NCBI RefSeq assembly: GCF_002979975.1
Contig: NZ_PCQD01000008.1
Span: 1 to 64,000 of the forward strand
Length of the DNA: 64,000 nt
Direction: 5' to 3'
Source of the DNA: Pseudomonas sp. MYb185
GTDB lineage: Bacteria > Pseudomonadota > Gammaproteobacteria > Pseudomonadales > Pseudomonadaceae
Shown: positions 6,672 to 55,208 of the stretch, one piece after another
How positions within the stretch are numbered: position 1 is the first letter of the stretch
Layout of the letters: every line of letters starts with the position of its first letter
Notes under the pieces: model-generated
Seen by the model: only the letters and a program-made list of their open reading frames with translations
What the model was told of the DNA's origin: nothing
The model's database searches: none
Made by a program: the position numbers and the translations under genes

Positions 6672-6745
6672 GGCAAGACTCCAGAACAGTAACGGCTCAC
6701 CGGTCGGGAGCCTGGGTCAACATTGATACTACCGGCAAACGCCAT

Positions 6746-6780
6746 GGATTGCCGCGCCACTACGTGGCTCGCAATGACGG
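6746..6780 (-). repeat. CATTGCGAG/GGCAATCC dispersed repeat at the array head
   Basis: The sequence runs from GGATTGCCGCGCC to GGCTCGCAATGACGG, so read on the minus strand it gives CGTCATTGCGAGCC...GGCAATCC. The GGCTCGCAATGAC half continues directly into the 39-bp array as its first unit. This suggests the array was amplified from one end of this repeat. Confidence 0.6.
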
Positions 6781-7076
6781 TGATATTTCGGCCTGGCTCA
6801 TGGTGGCTCGCAATGACAATGGTATTTCAGCCTGGCTCATGGTGGCTCGCAATGACAATGGTATTTCAGCCTGGCTCACGATGGCTCGCAATGACGGTGG
6901 TATTTCAGCCTGGCTCACGATGGCCCTCAATGACGGTGGTATTTCAGCCTGGCTCACGATGGCTCTCAATGACGGTGGTATTTCAGCCTGGCTCATGGTG
7001 GCTCGCAATGACAATGGTATTTCAGCCTGGCTCACGATGGCTCTCAATGACGGTGGTATTTCAGCCTGGCTCATGT
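6765..7076. repeat. 39-bp tandem array, eight units (minisatellite) between hisD and hisC
   Basis: Eight consecutive 39-bp units, each beginning TGGC(T/C)C(G/T)CAATGAC and ending TTTC(A/G)GCCTGGCTCA plus two or three variable bases, start at 6765, 6804, 6843, 6882, 6921, 6960, 6999 and 7038. Units 3 and 7 are identical and other variants are shuffled along the array, as expected from unequal crossover or slippage. Because 39 is a multiple of three, several frames on both strands stay open and encode 13-residue repeats. No ribosome-binding site or recognisable protein is attached, so I treat it as non-coding. Confidence 0.85.
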
Positions 7077-7115
7077 GACAACCTCACAACCCATAGCCAC
7101 CTTCGCCCACTCCCT

Positions 7116-7150
7116 CGTCATTGCGAGGAGTGAAACGACGCGGCAATCCA
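7116..7150 (+). repeat. CATTGCGAG/GGCAATCC dispersed repeat
   Basis: Reads CGTCATTGCGAGGAG...CGCGGCAATCCA. It forms an inverted pair with the copy at 7176-7210, 25 bp away. It lies in the non-coding stretch between the 39-bp array and the hisD stop. Confidence 0.65.
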
Positions 7151-14012: not shown

Positions 14013-14133
14013 GCGGAACAGGTTGGCCGGCAGGGTTGGGCCGACCGTCGGTTGCCATGGATGGCAACCGCGAGCCCCCAGGGATGGGTTCACGGCGTGT
14101 CGGCACGGCCCTGCCGGCCAATCTGTTCCTTGC
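14013..14133. repeat. Three-stem structured element, copy A (between mlaF and kdsD)
   Basis: Outer arms GGAACAGGTTGGCCGGCAGGG (two overlapping blocks, 14015-14035) and the imperfect complement in 14104-14129 pair with mainly G-T differences. The core 14046-14098 holds hairpin 1 (GGTTGCC/GGCAACC around a TGGA loop) and hairpin 2 (CCCA/TGGG around GGGA), joined by CGAGC and ending CACGGCGTGT. The same core layout with different stems occurs at 25677-25785 and 55101-55208. It lies in a gap between divergent promoters, so it is not simply a terminator. The rest of 13812-14254 shows no gene; a TATACT -10-like box is at 14218-14223. Confidence 0.75.
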
Positions 14134-21164: not shown

Positions 21165-21208
21165 CCCCAGCTGCCCACTGAACGCCCCCTACCTCACCGA
21201 CAGTAGGC

Positions 21209-21243
21209 GTAGCGCCCGAACGCGGACCGGGGCGCTACACCCC
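21209..21243 (+). repeat. Dispersed hairpin repeat after ptsO
   Basis: GTAGCGCC (21209-21216) pairs with GGCGCTAC (21231-21238). The 29 nt at 21215-21243 (CCCGAACGCGGACC, then GGGGCG, then CTACACCCC) match 28 of 29 positions at 47045-47073 in the opposite orientation. It sits between convergent ptsO and pmbA and may serve as a bidirectional terminator. The rest of the gap 21165-21352 shows no gene. Confidence 0.6.
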
Positions 21244-23448: not shown

Positions 23449-24432
23449 GTGAATATAGCCACGCCCCTGCCCCGTCTGGAAAACCTGCTGACGCCTGATC
23501 AGGGTCACGAGCATCAGCAACTGCTCGATGGACTGCTGCAACCACAGGCCTGCATCAATCCCAAATACTTCTACGATGATCGCGGCTGCGAACTGTTCAC
23601 CCGTATCTGCCAGCTCGACGAGTACTACCCGACCCGCACCGAAGCGGCCATCTTCGAACAATGCGCCGACGAGATCAGCGCAGCATTGGCCAACCATGCC
23701 CAATGGATCGATCTGGGCTGTGGCGACTGCAGCAAATCGCGCCGCTGGCTGGAGCGCATTACCCCGGCCCGGCTGATCGGCATCGACATCGCCGGAGACT
23801 TTCTGCAATCCTGCCTGGCGGACATCGCCGACGGGCATCCGGAGCTGGAGTGCGTCGGCGTGGTCAGCGACTTCACCCAACGCCTGGATATCAGCCGGCT
23901 GCTGGCCGAAGACCCACACAGCCCGCCGGTGTTCTTCTACCCCGGCTCGTCGATCGGTAATTTCGCCCGCACCGATGCCCTGCGTTTGCTGCGCGGTATT
24001 CGCCGACACTGCGGCGAGCGCGGACAGCTGCTGATCGGCGTCGACCTGGTCAAACCCAGCCACATCCTCGAAGCCGCCTACGACGATACCGAAGGCGTCA
24101 CCGCCGCGTTCAATCTGAATGTGCTGGAAGTAGTCAACCAACTGCTACCGGCGGACTTCGCAGCAGCCGCATTCCGCCACCAGGCCGTCTACGACCCGCG
24201 CAACTGCCGTATCGAAATGCGCCTGGTAGCCAACAGCCCGCAGACCGTGAGGCTGGGCAACACCGCGGTACGGCAATTTCAGCGTGACGAACATATCCTT
24301 ACCGAGTATTCCCACAAATACACCACCACCGGCTTCAGCACCCTGCTGGCCGAGGCCGGCTTCGGCCGGCAACAGCTGTGGACCGATCCTCACCACTGGT
24401 TCGGCGTATTCCTCGCGGAGCCACAGGCATGA
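23449..24432 (+). CDS. egtD: L-histidine N(alpha)-methyltransferase EgtD
   Basis: SAM-dependent trimethylation of histidine to hercynine, the first step to ergothioneine. Methyltransferase_33 motifs: NPKYFYDDRGCELFTRICQL early (substrate pocket with Asp-Arg-Gly), EYYPTRTEA, SAM site DLGCGDCSKSRRWL near residue 92, FFYPGSSIGNF, and the C-terminal EYSHKYT. I choose the GTG at 23449 behind AGGA (327 aa, near the roughly 321 aa of mycobacterial EgtD); an upstream GTG at 23404 would add 15 residues. The stop overlaps the egtB ATG by 4 nt. Confidence 0.9.
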   Translation: MNIATPLPRLENLLTPDQGHEHQQLLDGLLQPQACINPKYFYDDRGCELFTRICQLDEYYPTRTEAAIFEQCADEISAALANHAQWIDLGCGDCSKSRRWLERITPARLIGIDIAGDFLQSCLADIADGHPELECVGVVSDFTQRLDISRLLAEDPHSPPVFFYPGSSIGNFARTDALRLLRGIRRHCGERGQLLIGVDLVKPSHILEAAYDDTEGVTAAFNLNVLEVVNQLLPADFAAAAFRHQAVYDPRNCRIEMRLVANSPQTVRLGNTAVRQFQRDEHILTEYSHKYTTTGFSTLLAEAGFGRQQLWTDPHHWFGVFLAEPQA

Positions 24433-25643
24433 CCCTGCAACCGCCACCGACCGAAACCAGCCTGCTGCACTCGCATTACCGCAACGTGCGTGACCACAGC
24501 ATGCAACTGGTCGAAGGACTCAGCGCCGAGGACTGCCAACTGCAGTCGATGGCCGAAGCCAGCCCGATCAAATGGCACCTGGCGCATACCACCTGGTTCT
24601 TCGAGACCTTCATCCTGTCCGCCCTGCCGACACCGCCACCCCGCTTCGATGACGCGTTCGCGGTGCTGTTCAACTCCTATTACGTCGGAATCGGTCCGCG
24701 TCATGCACGACCGGAACGGGGCATGCTGTCACGGCCCTCGCTGGAGCAGGTTTTCGCCTATCGCCGACATGTGGATGCGCACATGCATCACGCCCTCTCC
24801 TCCCCGACCCTGCCCCAGGCGTTGATGGAACTGGTGGAACTGGGTCTGCATCATGAACAGCAGCACCAGGAATTGATCCTTACCGACCTCAAACATCACT
24901 TCTCCCGCAACCCGCTGGCCCCGGCCTGGCGCGACAGCGGCAAGGATCAGGCAGTGACTACTCACGGTGGCCTGACGGTCAGGGCGCTTGCCTTCGAAGG
25001 CGGTCTGGTCGAGATTGGCCATGCCGGCAATGGCTTCTGCTATGACAATGAAGGCCCCCGCCACCGCGTCTGGCTCGATTCCTTCAAGCTGGCCAACCGC
25101 AATGCGACCAACGGGGAGTACCTCGCCTTCATCCGCGACGGCGGCTATCAACGCCCCGAACTCTGGCTATCCGACGGCTGGGACCAGGTCTGCGGCGAAC
25201 AATGGCAGGCCCCGCTGTACTGGCAGCATGACGACACCGGCTGGCATGTCTTCACCCTGCATGGCCTGCAACCCCTGGCCCCCGAAGCAACGCTCAGCCA
25301 CATCAGCTTCTACGAAGCCGACGCCTTCGCCCGCTGGGCCGGCGCGCGCCTACCCACCGAGGCCGAATGGGAGCATGCGGCAAATCAGGACCAACCATTG
25401 CACGGCCTGTTCGACGAGGCCTGGCAGTGGTGCAACAGCGCCTACCTGCCCTACCCCGGTTTTCGCCCCGCCGCCGGCGCGGTCGGCGAGTACAACGGCA
25501 AGTTCATGATCAACCAGATGGTACTGCGCGGCGGATCAATCGCCACACCCGCCGGGCATAGTCGGACTTCATATCGCAACTTCTTTCCGACATGGGCGCG
25601 GTGGCAGTTCAGTGGGGTGCGGTTGGCCTGGGATGGCAATTGA
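24429..25643 (+). CDS. egtB: Hercynine oxygenase / sulfoxide synthase EgtB
   Basis: Non-haem iron enzyme that joins hercynine and a thiol (gamma-glutamylcysteine or cysteine) by oxidative C-S bond formation. The start at 24429 gives 404 aa. The N-terminal DinB-type bundle carries the predicted iron ligands His53 (WHLAHTTWFFE) and His142/His146 (HHEQQHQE). A C-terminal formylglycine-generating-enzyme-like domain contains ARLPTEAEWEHA and LRGGSIATP...SRTSYRNF. No egtA, egtC or egtE is nearby, so the sulfoxide lyase step must be encoded elsewhere, and which thiol is used cannot be read from this alone. Confidence 0.9.
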   Translation: MTLQPPPTETSLLHSHYRNVRDHSMQLVEGLSAEDCQLQSMAEASPIKWHLAHTTWFFETFILSALPTPPPRFDDAFAVLFNSYYVGIGPRHARPERGMLSRPSLEQVFAYRRHVDAHMHHALSSPTLPQALMELVELGLHHEQQHQELILTDLKHHFSRNPLAPAWRDSGKDQAVTTHGGLTVRALAFEGGLVEIGHAGNGFCYDNEGPRHRVWLDSFKLANRNATNGEYLAFIRDGGYQRPELWLSDGWDQVCGEQWQAPLYWQHDDTGWHVFTLHGLQPLAPEATLSHISFYEADAFARWAGARLPTEAEWEHAANQDQPLHGLFDEAWQWCNSAYLPYPGFRPAAGAVGEYNGKFMINQMVLRGGSIATPAGHSRTSYRNFFPTWARWQFSGVRLAWDGN

Positions 25644-25676
25644 GCCGGCTTCCCCAGCGACTCCGAAATCGAACTA

Positions 25677-25785
25677 GCGCAGAACCGAATAGCCCCATCC
25701 AGACCGTTTGATGCCAGGGACGGCATCAACGAGCCTACAGGGATGTATTCACGGCGCGTCTGGATGGGGCTATTCGGTTCTGCGC
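25677..25785. repeat. Three-stem structured element, copy B (after egtB)
   Basis: Perfect 28-bp inverted arms, 25677-25704 (GCGCAGAACCGAATAG then CCCCATCCAGAC) and 25758-25785. The core holds hairpin 1 (TTGATGCC/GGCATCAA, AGGGAC loop) and hairpin 2 (TACA/TGTA, GGGA loop), then CACGGCGC. Arms and stems differ from copies A and C but pair equally well. It lies 34 nt past the egtB stop, between convergent genes, where it could act as a terminator. Confidence 0.85.
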
Positions 25786-25807
25786 GTAACCACAAGACCA
25801 CCACAAT

Positions 25808-25846
25808 CCAAATAAAAAGGCCGCTCCCGTTACCGGAAGCGGCCTT
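25808..25846 (-). terminator. Intrinsic terminator of the acyl-CoA dehydrogenase gene
   Basis: 9-bp stem AAGGCCGCT/AGCGGCCTT (25817-25825 with 25838-25846). Read on the minus strand it is followed by TTTTTATTTGG. It starts 23 nt past the stop codon at 25869. This is the clearest U-tailed terminator in the window. Confidence 0.85.
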
Positions 25847-25868: not shown

Positions 25869-27674
25869 TCAGTAGCCCAGCGAGAAGTTCTCTTCGTCCA
25901 TCTCCATCAGGTTGGCGGAACCGGACAGCATGGCCTCGACGTGTGCACGGGTACGCGGCAGGATGCGCTGGTAGTAGAAGCGCGCAGTCTGCAGCTTGGC
26001 CTTGTAGAAGGCCTCGTCCCCAGTGCCGGCAGCCAGTTTCTCGGCAGCAACGCGGGCCATGTCAGCCCAGAAGTAGGCCAGGCAAACGTAGCCGGAGTAC
26101 ATCAGATAATCGACCGAAGCGGCACCGACCATCTCACGGTCCTTCATCGCCGCCATGCCGATCTTCATGGTCAGGTCAGCCCATTCCTTGTTCAGGGTCG
26201 CCAGCGGGCCGACGAACTCCTGGATGGACTCGTTGCCTTCCGCGCCCTTGCAGAACTTGTGCACGATCTTGGTGAAGTTCTGCAGGGTAGCGCCCTGGGT
26301 CATCAGCACCTTGCGGCCCAGCAGGTCCAGCGCCTGGATGCCCGTGGTACCTTCATACAGCATGGAAATGCGCGAATCGCGTACGTTCTGCTCCATGCCC
26401 CACTCGGAAATGAAACCGTGGCCACCGTAGATCTGCACACCGTGGTTAGCCGCCTCGAAGCCGACCTCGGTCATGAACGCCTTGGCGATCGGCGTCAGGA
26501 AGGCCAGCAGCGAGTCGGCCAGCTTCTTCTGTTCCTCGTCCTGGCTGCGCTTGATGATATCCACCTGCTTGGCAGTGAAGTACACCATGGCACGGTTGCC
26601 TTCGGCGAAAGCCTTCATGGTCAGCAGCATGCGGCGCACGTCCGGATGCACGATGATCGGGTCAGCTGGCTTCTTCGGTGCCTTCGGGCCGCTCAGCGCG
26701 CGCATCTGCAAACGCTCGCGGGCGTACTTGATGCCACCCTGGAACGCCACTTCAGCATGGGCCAGGCCCTGCAGAGCGGTACCCAGGCGCGCCGTGTTCA
26801 TGAAGGTGAACATCGCGTTCAGGCCCTTGTTCGGCGGCCCGATCAGGAAGCCGGTGGCGCCGTCAAAGTTCATCACGCAGGTGGCGTTGCCATGGATACC
26901 CATCTTGTGCTCCAGCGAGCCACAGGTAACGGCATTGCGCTCGCCGTTCTCGCCCTCGGCGTTCGGCAGAACCTTGGGCACGATGAACAGGGAGATACCC
27001 TTGGTGCCAGCCGGGGCATCGGGCAGACGCGCCAGAACGATATGGACGATATTCTCGGCCATATCGTGCTCACCGGAAGAAATGAAGATCTTGGTACCGG
27101 AAATGCGGTAGCTGCCATCTTCAGCCGGCTCGGCCTTGGTGCGCAGCATGCCCAGGTCGGTACCGCAATGGGGTTCGGTCAGGCACATGGTGCCGGTCCA
27201 CTGACCGGAAATCAGCTTGGTCAGGTAAACCTGCTTCTGCTCTTCAGTGCCGTGGGCTTCGATGGTATTCATCGCGCCGTGGGACAGGCCCGGGTACATG
27301 CCCCAGGACCAGTTGGCCTGGCCAACCATTTCGCTCAGGGTCAGACCCAGGGAGTCAGGCAGACCCTGACCGCCGTATTCGGGGTCCAGCGACAGGCTCG
27401 GCCAGCCGCCTTCGACGAACTGTGCGTAGGCTTCCTTGAAGCCGGTCGGAGTCTTCACGCCCTCAGGGCTCCAGGTACAGCCCTCGGTGTCACCGACGCG
27501 GTTCAGCGGTGCAATCACCTGCTCGCAGAACTTGGCACCCTCATCGAGGATGGCGTTGATCATGTCCGGAGTGGCGTCTTCGCATCCAGGCAGGCTGCTG
27601 TAATGCTCTTCATAACCCAGTACTTCGTCGCGTACGAAACGGATGTCGCGCAGGGGAGCCTTGTATTCTGGCAT
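25869..27674 (-). CDS. Acyl-CoA dehydrogenase (large C-terminal-domain type), beta-oxidation
   Basis: FAD enzyme for the first step of fatty-acid beta-oxidation; 601 aa from [17 protein letters not shown] at 27674 (five extra residues are possible from 27689). The order is: N-terminal extension typical of this roughly 600-aa class, core motifs [32 protein letters not shown] and [15 protein letters not shown], the catalytic-Glu loop [19 protein letters not shown], and a C-terminal DUF-type domain. A perfect 18-bp PsrA-like palindrome lies 59 bp upstream. A U-tailed terminator follows. Chain-length specificity cannot be read from sequence. The paralogue at 35039-36841 has the same architecture. 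Confidence 0.93.
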
Positions 27675-27732
27675 GGGTACTGACCTCAACGATTATTTCA
27701 GGATTCGGGACGGCGACGAGCCGGACGGCCCA

Positions 27733-45210: not shown

Positions 45211-45435
45211 TGGATTGCCACGTCGGCAAAAAACGCCGCCTCGCAATGACGGCGGGGAGCGCAACGCGGCAAGCAGCGCACAAGAGCTTACCCAGAACCC
45301 CGTCATTGCGAGCCCTGCAAGGGTGCGGCAACCGCTTGTCATTGGGAGCCCTGCAAGGGCACTACAATCCTCGTCATTGCGAGCGAAGCGCGGCAATCCA
45401 GTGATAGCGGGATGCTCGAAGCATATGGATTGCCA
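45211..45435. repeat. Cluster of CATTGCGAG/GGCAATCC dispersed repeats
   Basis: Several copies in both orientations: 45211-45251 (TGGATTGCC...CTCGCAATGAC), 45301-45333 (CGTCATTGCGAGCCCTGC...GCGGCAACC), 45336-45371 (TGTCATTGGGAGCCCTGC...ACAATCC), 45372-45400 (CGTCATTGCGAGCGAAGCG then CGGCAATCCA), and a half copy at 45425-45435. A decayed CCATTGGGAGCC is at 45464. It fills the 357-bp gap between the PIN-PhoH gene and yaaA. The same family flanks the 39-bp array at 6.7-7.2 kb. No gene is seen in the gap. Confidence 0.75.
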
Positions 45436-46309: not shown

Positions 46310-47053
46310 ATGACCGGCGCCGGGCAGAACGGCTCGTCACCAGGGCCCAGTGACCGACTTACCCAGTTGCTGCAACATAATCGCTGGTTTGGTGACCTGC
46401 CGACTGACTGCATCAGCGAGATAGTGGCGATGGCGCGATTGCGCGGGGTGGATGATGGGCAGCGGCTATTTGCCCGCGGCGATCTGCCGGACGGTCTGTA
46501 TGGTATCTGCAGCGGCAGCGTGCGCATCAGCAATACCGGCACCGATGGGCGCGAAGCACTGCTGACGGTACTCAGCCCCGGCAGTTGGTTTGGCGAGATA
46601 TCCCTGTTCGATGGCCTGCCCCGCACCCATGACGCCCATGCCATGGGTGCCACCGAACTGCTGCTGATTCCGCAGAAGGGTTTCCAGCAACTGCTCGAAC
46701 GCCGTCCCGAGCTTTATCCGCATTTCATGCGGCTGCTGTGCCGACGCCTGCGCCTGTCATTCAACATGATGGACGACAGCGCCCTGCTCCCGCTGCCTGC
46801 CCGGCTGGCCAAACGCCTGTTGATGCATGCGCAGTACTACGGCGAAATGGCGATGAGCAATGAGCGGCTGTCCATCCAGCTATCCCAGGAAACCCTGGGC
46901 CTGATGCTCAACAGCTCGCGCCAGAGCATCAACCGCCTGCTCAAGCAGTTCGAACAGGCCGGCTGGATTCGCATCCACTACAGCCAGATCAGTATTCTCG
47001 ATGAAGAAGCCCTGACCCGCATCGCAACGGGCAGCGGTATGCCTGGGGTGTAG
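46310..47053 (+). CDS. Crp/Fnr-family transcriptional regulator
   Basis: 247-residue regulator: cyclic-nucleotide-binding beta-roll (GDLPDGLYGICSGSVRISN, LSPGSWFGEISLFDGLPRTHDAHA) and a C-terminal winged helix (SQETLGLMLNSSRQSINRLLKQFEQAGWI). It lacks the four-cysteine N-terminal motif of Fnr/Anr; the cAMP-pocket Arg-Ser/Thr pair is replaced by Arg-Thr-His, so ligand is uncertain. The gene begins 3 nt after yaaA. Its last codons (MPGV-stop) lie in the 29-nt dispersed repeat, so the C-terminus may have been altered by repeat insertion. Confidence 0.88.
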   Translation: MTGAGQNGSSPGPSDRLTQLLQHNRWFGDLPTDCISEIVAMARLRGVDDGQRLFARGDLPDGLYGICSGSVRISNTGTDGREALLTVLSPGSWFGEISLFDGLPRTHDAHAMGATELLLIPQKGFQQLLERRPELYPHFMRLLCRRLRLSFNMMDDSALLPLPARLAKRLLMHAQYYGEMAMSNERLSIQLSQETLGLMLNSSRQSINRLLKQFEQAGWIRIHYSQISILDEEALTRIATGSGMPGV

Positions 47054-47073
47054 CCCCCCGGTCCGCGTTCGGG
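47045..47073 (-). repeat. 29-nt dispersed repeat overlapping the regulator stop codon
   Basis: The reverse complement matches 21215-21243 at 28 of 29 positions. The stop codon of the Crp/Fnr gene (47051-47053) lies inside it. It abuts the 97-bp array, which carries a similar GTGTAGCGC...GCTACGCC hairpin. Confidence 0.65.
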
Positions 47074-47098
47074 CAATATGCCTATGGCCTGGCCCGGC

Positions 47099-47478
47099 CG
47101 TCGTCGAGCAGGCGCTCGACAACCCGGGAGCAGCGCGGTACCAGGGTGTAGCGCACCGACGCTACGCCTGCGGGCTGGCCGGCAGCCTTCAAACCCGTCG
47201 TCGAGCAGGCGCTCGACAACCCAGGAGCAGCGCGGTACCGGAGTGTAGCGCATCGGCGCTACGCCTGCGGACTGGCCCGCAGCCTCAAGACCCGTCGTCG
47301 AGCAGGCGCTCGACAACCCAGGAGCAGCGCGGTACCGGGGTGTAGCGCCCCCGCGCTACGCCTGCGGACTGGCCGGCAGCCTCAAGACCCGTCGTCGAGC
47401 AGGCACTCGACAACCCGGGAGCGGCACGGTACCGGGGTGTAGCGCCCCGGCGCTACGCCTGCGGGCTGGTCGGCAATC
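47099..47478. repeat. 97-bp tandem array, four units
   Basis: Units begin CGTCGTCGAGCAGGC at 47099, 47196, 47293 and 47390, exactly 97 bp apart. Each has a TCGAGCAGGCGCTCGA hairpin and a GTGTAGCGC...GCGCTACGCC hairpin. The last unit ends at the flavodoxin stop codon (47479). Differences among units are a few substitutions each. It fills the gap between convergent genes; no protein-coding signal is seen. Confidence 0.85.
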
Positions 47479-47943
47479 TCAGGCCTGGCCGTTACGCAGG
47501 CGCGCAATGAAATCATCCAGCCACGGCTTGGCATCTTCCTCGGGGGTGACCGTTTCACTGGCGTCGAGCCGCAGCATCGGCAGCGCTTCGCTGGCCTGGA
47601 CTTCCAGCAGCAGCTCGCGGATTTGTTCACCACCCAGGCAGAAGGTATCGCCGTAACCGGCGTCGCCCAGCGCAATGACGCCGAAGGGTTTGCCTGTCAG
47701 CAAAGGAAAGCGCGACTGCATGTCGTAGTAGAAATCCTGGATGGTGGCCGGCAGTTCCCCCATGCCGGTGGTCGAGCAACAGACCAGGATCGCGTCAGCA
47801 TTGGCCTCGAGCAATGCATCCACCGTCGCCGGCTTGATGCGGGTAACCTGCAGCCCGGCTGCCCGGCAGCGCTCTGCCGCTTCGTCAGCCACCTCATCGG
47901 CAGTGCCGAAAACCGAACCACTGAGTATCGCCAGATGCATCAT
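47479..47943 (-). CDS. Flavodoxin-domain protein (MioC-like)
   Basis: 154-residue FMN-binding flavodoxin, similar to E. coli MioC and to a pseudomonad gene next to folM. FMN phosphate loop: LSGSVFGTADEVADE at residues 7-21; second loop STTGMGELP near 58; third loop GDAGYGDTFC near 93. Redox partner is unknown. The start may be the first or second ATG. The 3' end abuts the 97-bp array; the 118-bp gap to folM holds the divergent promoters. Confidence 0.88.
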   Translation of the reverse strand: MMHLAILSGSVFGTADEVADEAAERCRAAGLQVTRIKPATVDALLEANADAILVCCSTTGMGELPATIQDFYYDMQSRFPLLTGKPFGVIALGDAGYGDTFCLGGEQIRELLLEVQASEALPMLRLDASETVTPEEDAKPWLDDFIARLRNGQA

Positions 47944-55100: not shown

Positions 55101-55208
55101 GCCGGGTCCGGTAGCGCCGGTCACAGACCGTCGATAGCCAGGGATGGCTATCGCGAGCTACAGGGACGTACTTGCCGCGTGTCTGTGACCGGCGCTACCG
55201 GGCCCGGC
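55101..55208. repeat. Three-stem structured element, copy C (between pepA and holC)
   Basis: 28-bp arms 55101-55128 (GCCGGGTCCGGTAG then CGCCGGTCACAGAC) and 55181-55208 pair at 27 positions; the one exception is a G-T pair. The core holds hairpin 1 (CGATAGCC/GGCTATCG, AGGGAT loop), CGAGC, hairpin 2 (TAC/GTA around AGGGAC), and GCCGCGT. It is 48 nt past pepA and 75 nt before holC, both on the plus strand, so if it terminates, holC needs its own promoter. The rest of 55054-55283 shows no gene. Confidence 0.82.

Follow-up and report, generated by a model that had tools for sequence, protein, structure and literature searches.

A dispersed three-stem element of Pseudomonas sp. MYb185, related to TwoAYGGAY and carrying putative paired CsrA/RsmA sites

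The sponge RNAs CsrB, RsmX, RsmY and RsmZ carry several GGA hairpins that bind CsrA/RsmA, and each is a single gene with its own promoter; CsrB and RsmY also appear in passages on Rfam 12.0. The TwoAYGGAY family (RF01731) is a member of Rfam clan CL00106, named in a passage of PMC5753348 as the Csr-Rsm protein binding clan. Passages of PMC4333381 propose binding of TwoAYGGAY by CsrA and give tandem G-A pairs in one stem as a trait of the family. A further family, Ysr224 (RF02770), is described in part of PMC12112432 as multi-copy and expressed in Y. ruckeri, and a passage of PMC9029176 places it among the most abundant sRNA families and calls it temperature-responsive. At the level of DNA, bacterial MITEs and REP/TIR repeats (ERIC, YPAL, NEMIS, RAYT/TIRYT) are characterised in passages of PMC3733652 as short, intergenic, palindromic and mobile sequences that stand paired or clustered.

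The element considered here lies in a window of 64,000 nt, the whole stretch of Pseudomonas sp. MYb185 DNA that was analysed (contig NZ_PCQD01000008.1, positions 1 to 64,000), and is represented there by three copies, A, B and C. Like MITEs and REP/TIR repeats, the element of copy B is short, intergenic, palindromic and mobile and occurs in pairs; unlike MITEs and the RAYT/TIRYT repeats, it has a conserved RNA-like core and covarying stems, and no Y1 transposase neighbour was seen (30 loci). It shares GGA hairpins with the sponge RNAs but differs from them in being a two-site module with tens to hundreds of dispersed copies. The repeat family was not found described, by sequence words or by topic, in the titles, abstract openings and passages of open-licence PubMed Central literature that came up, an absence that counts as weak evidence. 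We lean towards reading copy B as a folded, RNA-like module in which paired CsrA/RsmA sites would be held by a clamp stem of free sequence, and which would have spread as mobile DNA.

Copy B and its named relatives

Copy B occupies 25677-25785 on the + strand, as do all of its parts. Its outer arms, 25677-25704 on the left and 25758-25785 on the right, are 28 nt each, complementary at 28 of 28 positions, and enclose a core of 53 nt with two GGA-loop hairpins. Hairpin 1 (25705-25731), seen in the fold and as the second covarying helix of the alignments below, carries the loop AGGGAC with its GGA at 25718-25720. The single linker A at 25732 belongs to the AG of CGAGC, of which the G pairs in hairpin 2; this A and G are invariant in an alignment of 66 sequences. 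Hairpin 2 (25733-25755; helices 3 and 4) has a GCC/GGC base, a UACA-GGGA-UGUA apex with the loop AGGGAU and its GGA at 25741-25743, and a 3' bulge, UUCAC. The start positions of the two GGA triplets differ by 23 nt. Folded as RNA, positions 25667-25795 reach -77.8 kcal/mol, whereas 200 shuffled sequences gave -37.5 +/- 4.0 (z -10).

Copies A and C have the core and layout of copy B. Copy A (14015-14129, +), with an ABC transporter gene on one side and a SIS/CBS-domain gene on the other, has 31-bp arms with 4 non-Watson-Crick positions, while copy C (55101-55208, +), between a peptidase M17 gene and the gene for the chi subunit of DNA polymerase III (HolC), has 28-bp arms with 1 such position. 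An earlier note on this DNA had described a three-stem element with a core common to the three copies, and the perfect arms of copy B, its fold and the covariance-model matches given below bear that description out. The gene upstream of copy B, with DinB_2 and FGE-sulfatase domains (24378-25643, +), ends at a stop codon 33 nt 5' of the element. Downstream stands a convergent acyl-CoA dehydrogenase gene (25869-27689, -), whose intrinsic-terminator-like site (25817-25846, -) is outside copy B. A sigma-70-like promoter was sought beside copy B and none was found.

The earlier note knew of no named family for the element, and here it was mistaken: TwoAYGGAY and Ysr224 are named relatives. Judged by sequence and predicted fold, copy B is a close variant of TwoAYGGAY. 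The two have in common a poorly conserved outer stem, two hairpins, an AG linker and a CGG..CGUC end. TwoAYGGAY loops read AYGGAY and those of copy B read ARGGAY, with AUGGAY in hairpin 1 of copy A and in many relatives. Copy B departs from TwoAYGGAY in its hairpin 2, which is shorter and bulged on the 3' side, and in its outer stem, which has no internal loop; its element also differs in being dispersed in many copies, frequently as inverted pairs. Tandem G-A pairs are absent from copy B and appear in hairpin 1 of 4 of 28 aligned copies (L082, L088, L093, L162).

The TwoAYGGAY model aligns with copy B from end to end at 24.8 bits, below its gathering cut-off of 43, and this match ranks behind microRNA and queA models whose matches are surely due to chance; it was not listed for a 123-base cut of copy B, nor at E <=5 for three other loci. 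Eukaryotic microRNA families, which topped the permissive Rfam scans, were set aside as chance matches to a long hairpin. At gathering thresholds Rfam returned nothing in the window and nothing in ten loci, and in 18 named loci it returned one Ysr224 (the Yersinia locus), one tRNA and no TwoAYGGAY. When five genomes were scanned with the TwoAYGGAY model, the cut-off was passed twice, once at a locus already in the element set (G023:C1:438389-438524, 43.5 bits). Eight sub-threshold matches, the best at 40.5 bits, were found in the source genome, and one in 14 control genomes. The eight form a second subfamily with the same plan and with CAGGGAYG and CCATGGATGG loops. Members of this subfamily (L330-L336, on G000:C27, C30, C25 and C15) have nearly perfect, variable arms of ~30 bp and stand nearer to TwoAYGGAY than copy B does.

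The kinship to Ysr224 rests on its consensus letters, which match the core of the element. The Yersinia proxima copy is itself a Ysr224 match, at 94 bits against a cut-off of 70 and on the opposite strand. In the source genome Ysr224 scores lie below 70 and again on the opposite strand (copy A 18.3 bits, best listed 33.3), and such sub-threshold matches carry little weight alone, as 9 of 14 control genomes also match at the loose setting. Ysr224, the relative whose expression has been observed, is modelled in Rfam on the opposite strand and with another fold from the copy B element, which speaks against a role of the + strand as RNA. The element joins TwoAYGGAY and Ysr224, two obscure Rfam entries, into one larger family.

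Dispersal and the mobile-DNA alternative

That other copies could be collected genome-wide with a covariance model, as the earlier note had suggested, was established with a model (R1) trained on 28 copies, all from other genomes and 5 of them from the same genus. It recovered copy B at E 1.6e-17, copy A at 3.8e-17 and copy C at 3.8e-12, values that are rough owing to a short calibration. At E <= 0.01 it gave at least 37 matches in the source genome and matched 18 of 29 genomes; these genome counts are lower bounds, since in each genome 150 of ~1,000 preliminary candidates went on to scoring. A weaker match within the window (46607-46657, -; 19.4 bits, E 0.004) is perhaps a decayed copy. A core pattern allowing <=2 mismatches occurs at 24 places in the source genome and in 18 of 29 genomes, the source genome included, whereas the reversed pattern used as a control occurs nowhere in the source genome and 4 times in all 29. 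The exact core pattern is present in 39 of 369 genomes of the class Gammaproteobacteria (control 0), and one of these, G289, contains 464 exact matches. Among the matches listed are Stenotrophomonas, Xanthomonas, Marinobacter, Microbulbifer, Rheinheimera, Yersinia, Vibrio, Methylomonas and others.

After 9 edge matches had been left out, 233 strict-core matches were scored for arms: the net score was at least 12 in 185, 8-11 in 11 and below 8 in 37, the last group including some with visible arms missed by the score and others that are interrupted or truncated. At random places a score of at least 12 was reached in 12 of 1458. Two source-genome copies (L038 96-121 and L040 83-108, on G000:C8 and G000:C10) have hairpin 1 broken near the loop by a sequence ending ..CCGGTCTATA, near contig ends; an insertion element that targets hairpin 1 may be responsible. 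Similarity searches of plasmids with copy B and of phages with copy A gave no match. A core sequence of 57 nt matched 8 plasmid records, the best at E 2e-3 and without an annotated feature there, and gave weak, chance-like matches to phages.

An alternative explanation is that the element is MITE- or REP-like mobile DNA, in which the folded strand would be single-stranded DNA read by a transposase and the core would be a recognition site, not an RNA-binding platform. We regard this as possible though rather doubtful. The copies are dispersed and many stand in inverted pairs, mostly ~150-350 nt apart; in the source genome the pairs have arm types and spacer in common. The G289 unit has terminal inverted repeats, TATACC...GGTATA, seen in 24 copies, and the TATACC end has 546 matches there at <=1 mismatch. 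Such repeats were recognised in G289, and by eye none were recognised in the units of the source genome. An autonomous partner with the G289 ends was sought in 4 stretches, and among the open reading frames of one of them (L378) no transposase was recognised by eye. On the RNA-module reading, too, the element DNA spreads between genes, as lone copies or inverted pairs and, in G289, within terminal-inverted-repeat units.

Orthologous sites, moreover, are polymorphic for presence of the element. The site of copy B was surveyed in 29 genomes of the genus that contain the acyl-CoA dehydrogenase locus, G015 being without a visible gene junction and two loci being cut short. It holds copy B in the source genome (G000) and an inverted pair in G007 and G008, and no element scored in the other 26 genomes (junction visible in 25). 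At one gene junction, G000 and G007 carry paired units whose order is opposite in the two; by eye, the other genomes printed have none there.

Against a purely transposase-read hairpin stands the comparison of copy B with G008 at this one site, where, of the 28 arm pairs, four have changed on both sides with pairing kept, one is a wobble and one is broken, so that compensated change continues after insertion. The mobile-DNA explanation also sits poorly with the neighbourhood of Y1 transposases: 45 matches were listed in 18 genomes, and 0 of 30 fetched loci had a B-type core within <=1.5 kb. An origin as TIRYT or RAYT repeats was rejected on this same count. Inverted duplication of the target at insertion found no support, given that arms recur between copies (24 G289 copies have arms and flanks in common) and that the empty sites printed show, by eye, no single pre-existing arm.

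The window holds other repeats as well. A 39-bp tandem repeat present seven times at 6726-7112 has CGTCATTGCGAG-type palindromes beside it and resembles CGTC-tagged REP repeats; palindromes of this type also lie at 7106-7146 and 45291-45331. Another repeat occurs four times in register at 47001-47485 with a spacing of 97 bp, and part of it, 47045-47084, is the inverted partner of 21204-21243.

Paired GGA loops and a putative CsrA/RsmA role

In the mechanism we favour, the + strand of the element would work in folded, single-stranded form, most probably as RNA. It would make a three-way junction out of two hairpins with N-GGA loops and a long outer stem, which may take any sequence that keeps its pairing. 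The two GGA hairpins would hold one CsrA/RsmA dimer, as in the Csr-Rsm clan, and the outer stem would serve as a clamp, setting the module apart and keeping it stable within any carrier transcript.

The dual CsrA/RsmA module was chosen because the GGA loops are paired and have a free preceding base, because the GGA of hairpin 1 is invariant and because the kinship is to the Csr-Rsm clan; the agreement of the N-GGA loop rule with that clan also speaks against a transposase recognition site. Copy B has GGA in the loops of paired hairpins, a trait of CsrA/RsmA-binding RNAs. Its hairpin 2, CUACAGGGAUGU, has one difference from the SELEX consensus, RUACARGGAUGU. A simple script placed GGA in or beside the hairpin 1 loop of 180 out of 190 unique segments, and 9 of the remaining 10 still contain GGA; hairpin 1 without GGA is rare (1 of the 190 segments and one G289 copy). 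In the 66 aligned copies the hairpin 1 GGA is invariant, 66 of 66, within a hypervariable stem and without having been demanded by the search.

Genome content and gene context lend this role no support. A csrA gene (PF02599) is present in 35 of 39 element genomes and 278 of 330 others and is thus not commoner with the element (Fisher p 0.48); G236, 98% complete and with 6 element matches, gave no csrA match. Within 400 kb of G289, a simple gene-calling script leaves 45 of 48 copies outside genes. The 39 single copies in that genome are sense to both neighbours in 13 cases, antisense to both in 13 and mixed in 8 and 5. With no sense bias, the element is a poor fit to a cis element read with its genes and a better one to a decoy (sponge) or, as the mobile-DNA explanation would have it, a mobile element without orientation bias toward genes. 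A local role at 3' ends is the other function that a CsrA/RsmA module might have.

The same orientations weigh on a less specific proposal, that the element is a generic stabiliser of mRNA 3' ends or a substrate of RNase III/E, like ERIC or NEMIS hairpins, with loops for another protein. Copy B itself suits such a role, with its very stable stem (-77.8 kcal/mol) and its place just past a stop codon, in sense, and stabiliser or processing roles are described for MITE hairpins in passages of PMC3733652. That said, single copies show no sense bias in G289, and a generic stabiliser would need neither a pair of conserved GGA loops nor an AG linker that never varies, so we consider the proposal improbable.

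The CsrA/RsmA role of the copy B element stands as a putative one, unproven and our best bet from sequence comparison. It makes a direct prediction, the binding of CsrA/RsmA by a mobile repeat. A bolder version, offered tentatively and with more doubt than belief, is that a mobile element found throughout Gammaproteobacteria bears a dual CsrA/RsmA site and by its transposition supplies genomes with tens to hundreds of decoys and connects new transcripts to the Csr/Rsm network, with the clamp selected for its structure. If true, mobile DNA would distribute decoys of a global regulator across the Gammaproteobacteria, and selection of the clamp stem for structure only would yield arms that are hypervariable yet always complementary.

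Covariation and strand bias of the arms

Pairing across copies was assessed in two alignments, one (A2) of 66 of the 73 printed references and one (A4) of 28 of those 66, of equal length and gap-free by choice. In A4, where the scan had preselected the arms for pairing but not hairpin 1, 90.2% of cells are paired (63.4% after shuffling), 217 cells are compensatory on both sides (72.7 after shuffling), and covariation scores 0.715 (0.218 after shuffling); none of 500 shuffles reached the observed value in any of the three. When partners were slid out of register the score was at most 0.16. Two further measures did not stand out from the shuffles: the number of pairs changed on both sides (20 of 26, compared with 17.9 in shuffles, 43 of 500 of which reach it) and further pair types (46 against 47.4). 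Unprompted, RNAalifold returned nearly the same structure, with 23 pairs, 19 of them with two-sided change. The earlier note's observation that stem letters change while pairing is kept in the arms and both hairpins extends to 28 aligned copies. Neither outcome that it had named as refuting, a lack of other copies or of covariation, came about: the covariation lies far above the shuffles in three of five measures and above the slid-partner control. The retention of fold and loops amid free stem letters suggests that elements of the copy B type function as folded RNA.

The mismatches that the arms tolerate are unequal between strands. These statistics are limited to elements whose arms reach 15 or more (276 of 286, with 267 in the clustered set) and are blind to whether arms exist. 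Among 131 representatives of arm clusters, GT outnumbers AC by 142 to 26, GA outnumbers TC by 96 to 12 and GG outnumbers CC by 24 to 3, while AA and TT hardly differ (11 vs 8). Elements leaning to GT exceed those leaning to AC by 70 to 13 (sign test, p 1.3e-10). Over all 276 elements the counts are GT 319 and AC 52, and in G289 GT 75 and AC 11; G023 runs against the bias (GT 6, AC 10). Since correction at the level of DNA cannot tell the strands apart, the + strand appears to be under selection as the folded strand. The bias does not prove RNA, because single-stranded DNA also accepts G-T wobbles, and a hairpin acting as single-stranded DNA would be expected to show the same one-strand tolerance.

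Selection on structure, one of two causes weighed in the earlier note, is supported for the copy B element by the covariation, the compensated changes at the orthologous site and the strand bias. The other, a copying process by which arms come to match, is disfavoured as the principal cause: self-correction of the palindrome at replication by template switching, with selection on the core alone, could keep arms near-perfect yet far diverged, as they are (33% identity between clusters in the 18 core-adjacent arm letters against 73% for the final 26 nt of the core, the low figure being partly by construction from a 70% cut), but it should act equally on both strands where ratios of ~5:1 to 8:1 are seen for GT/AC, GA/TC and GG/CC, and hairpins 1 and 2 covary as well, which makes it very unlikely. 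The same evolutionary evidence suggests that Ysr224 has been modelled on the disfavoured strand.

The arms of the 267 elements in the clustered set fall into 131 clusters, one of which holds 50. The earlier note called the arms of copy B unique to it, and this holds among 21 scored elements of the source genome (next best identity 0.55 over 20 letters); it does not hold for copy A, whose arm recurs in six other loci at 0.95-1.0 identity. Another recurring arm type, ending GAGCAAAG and with the core start CCTCTG, is found in three genomes of the genus (L117, L141, L048).
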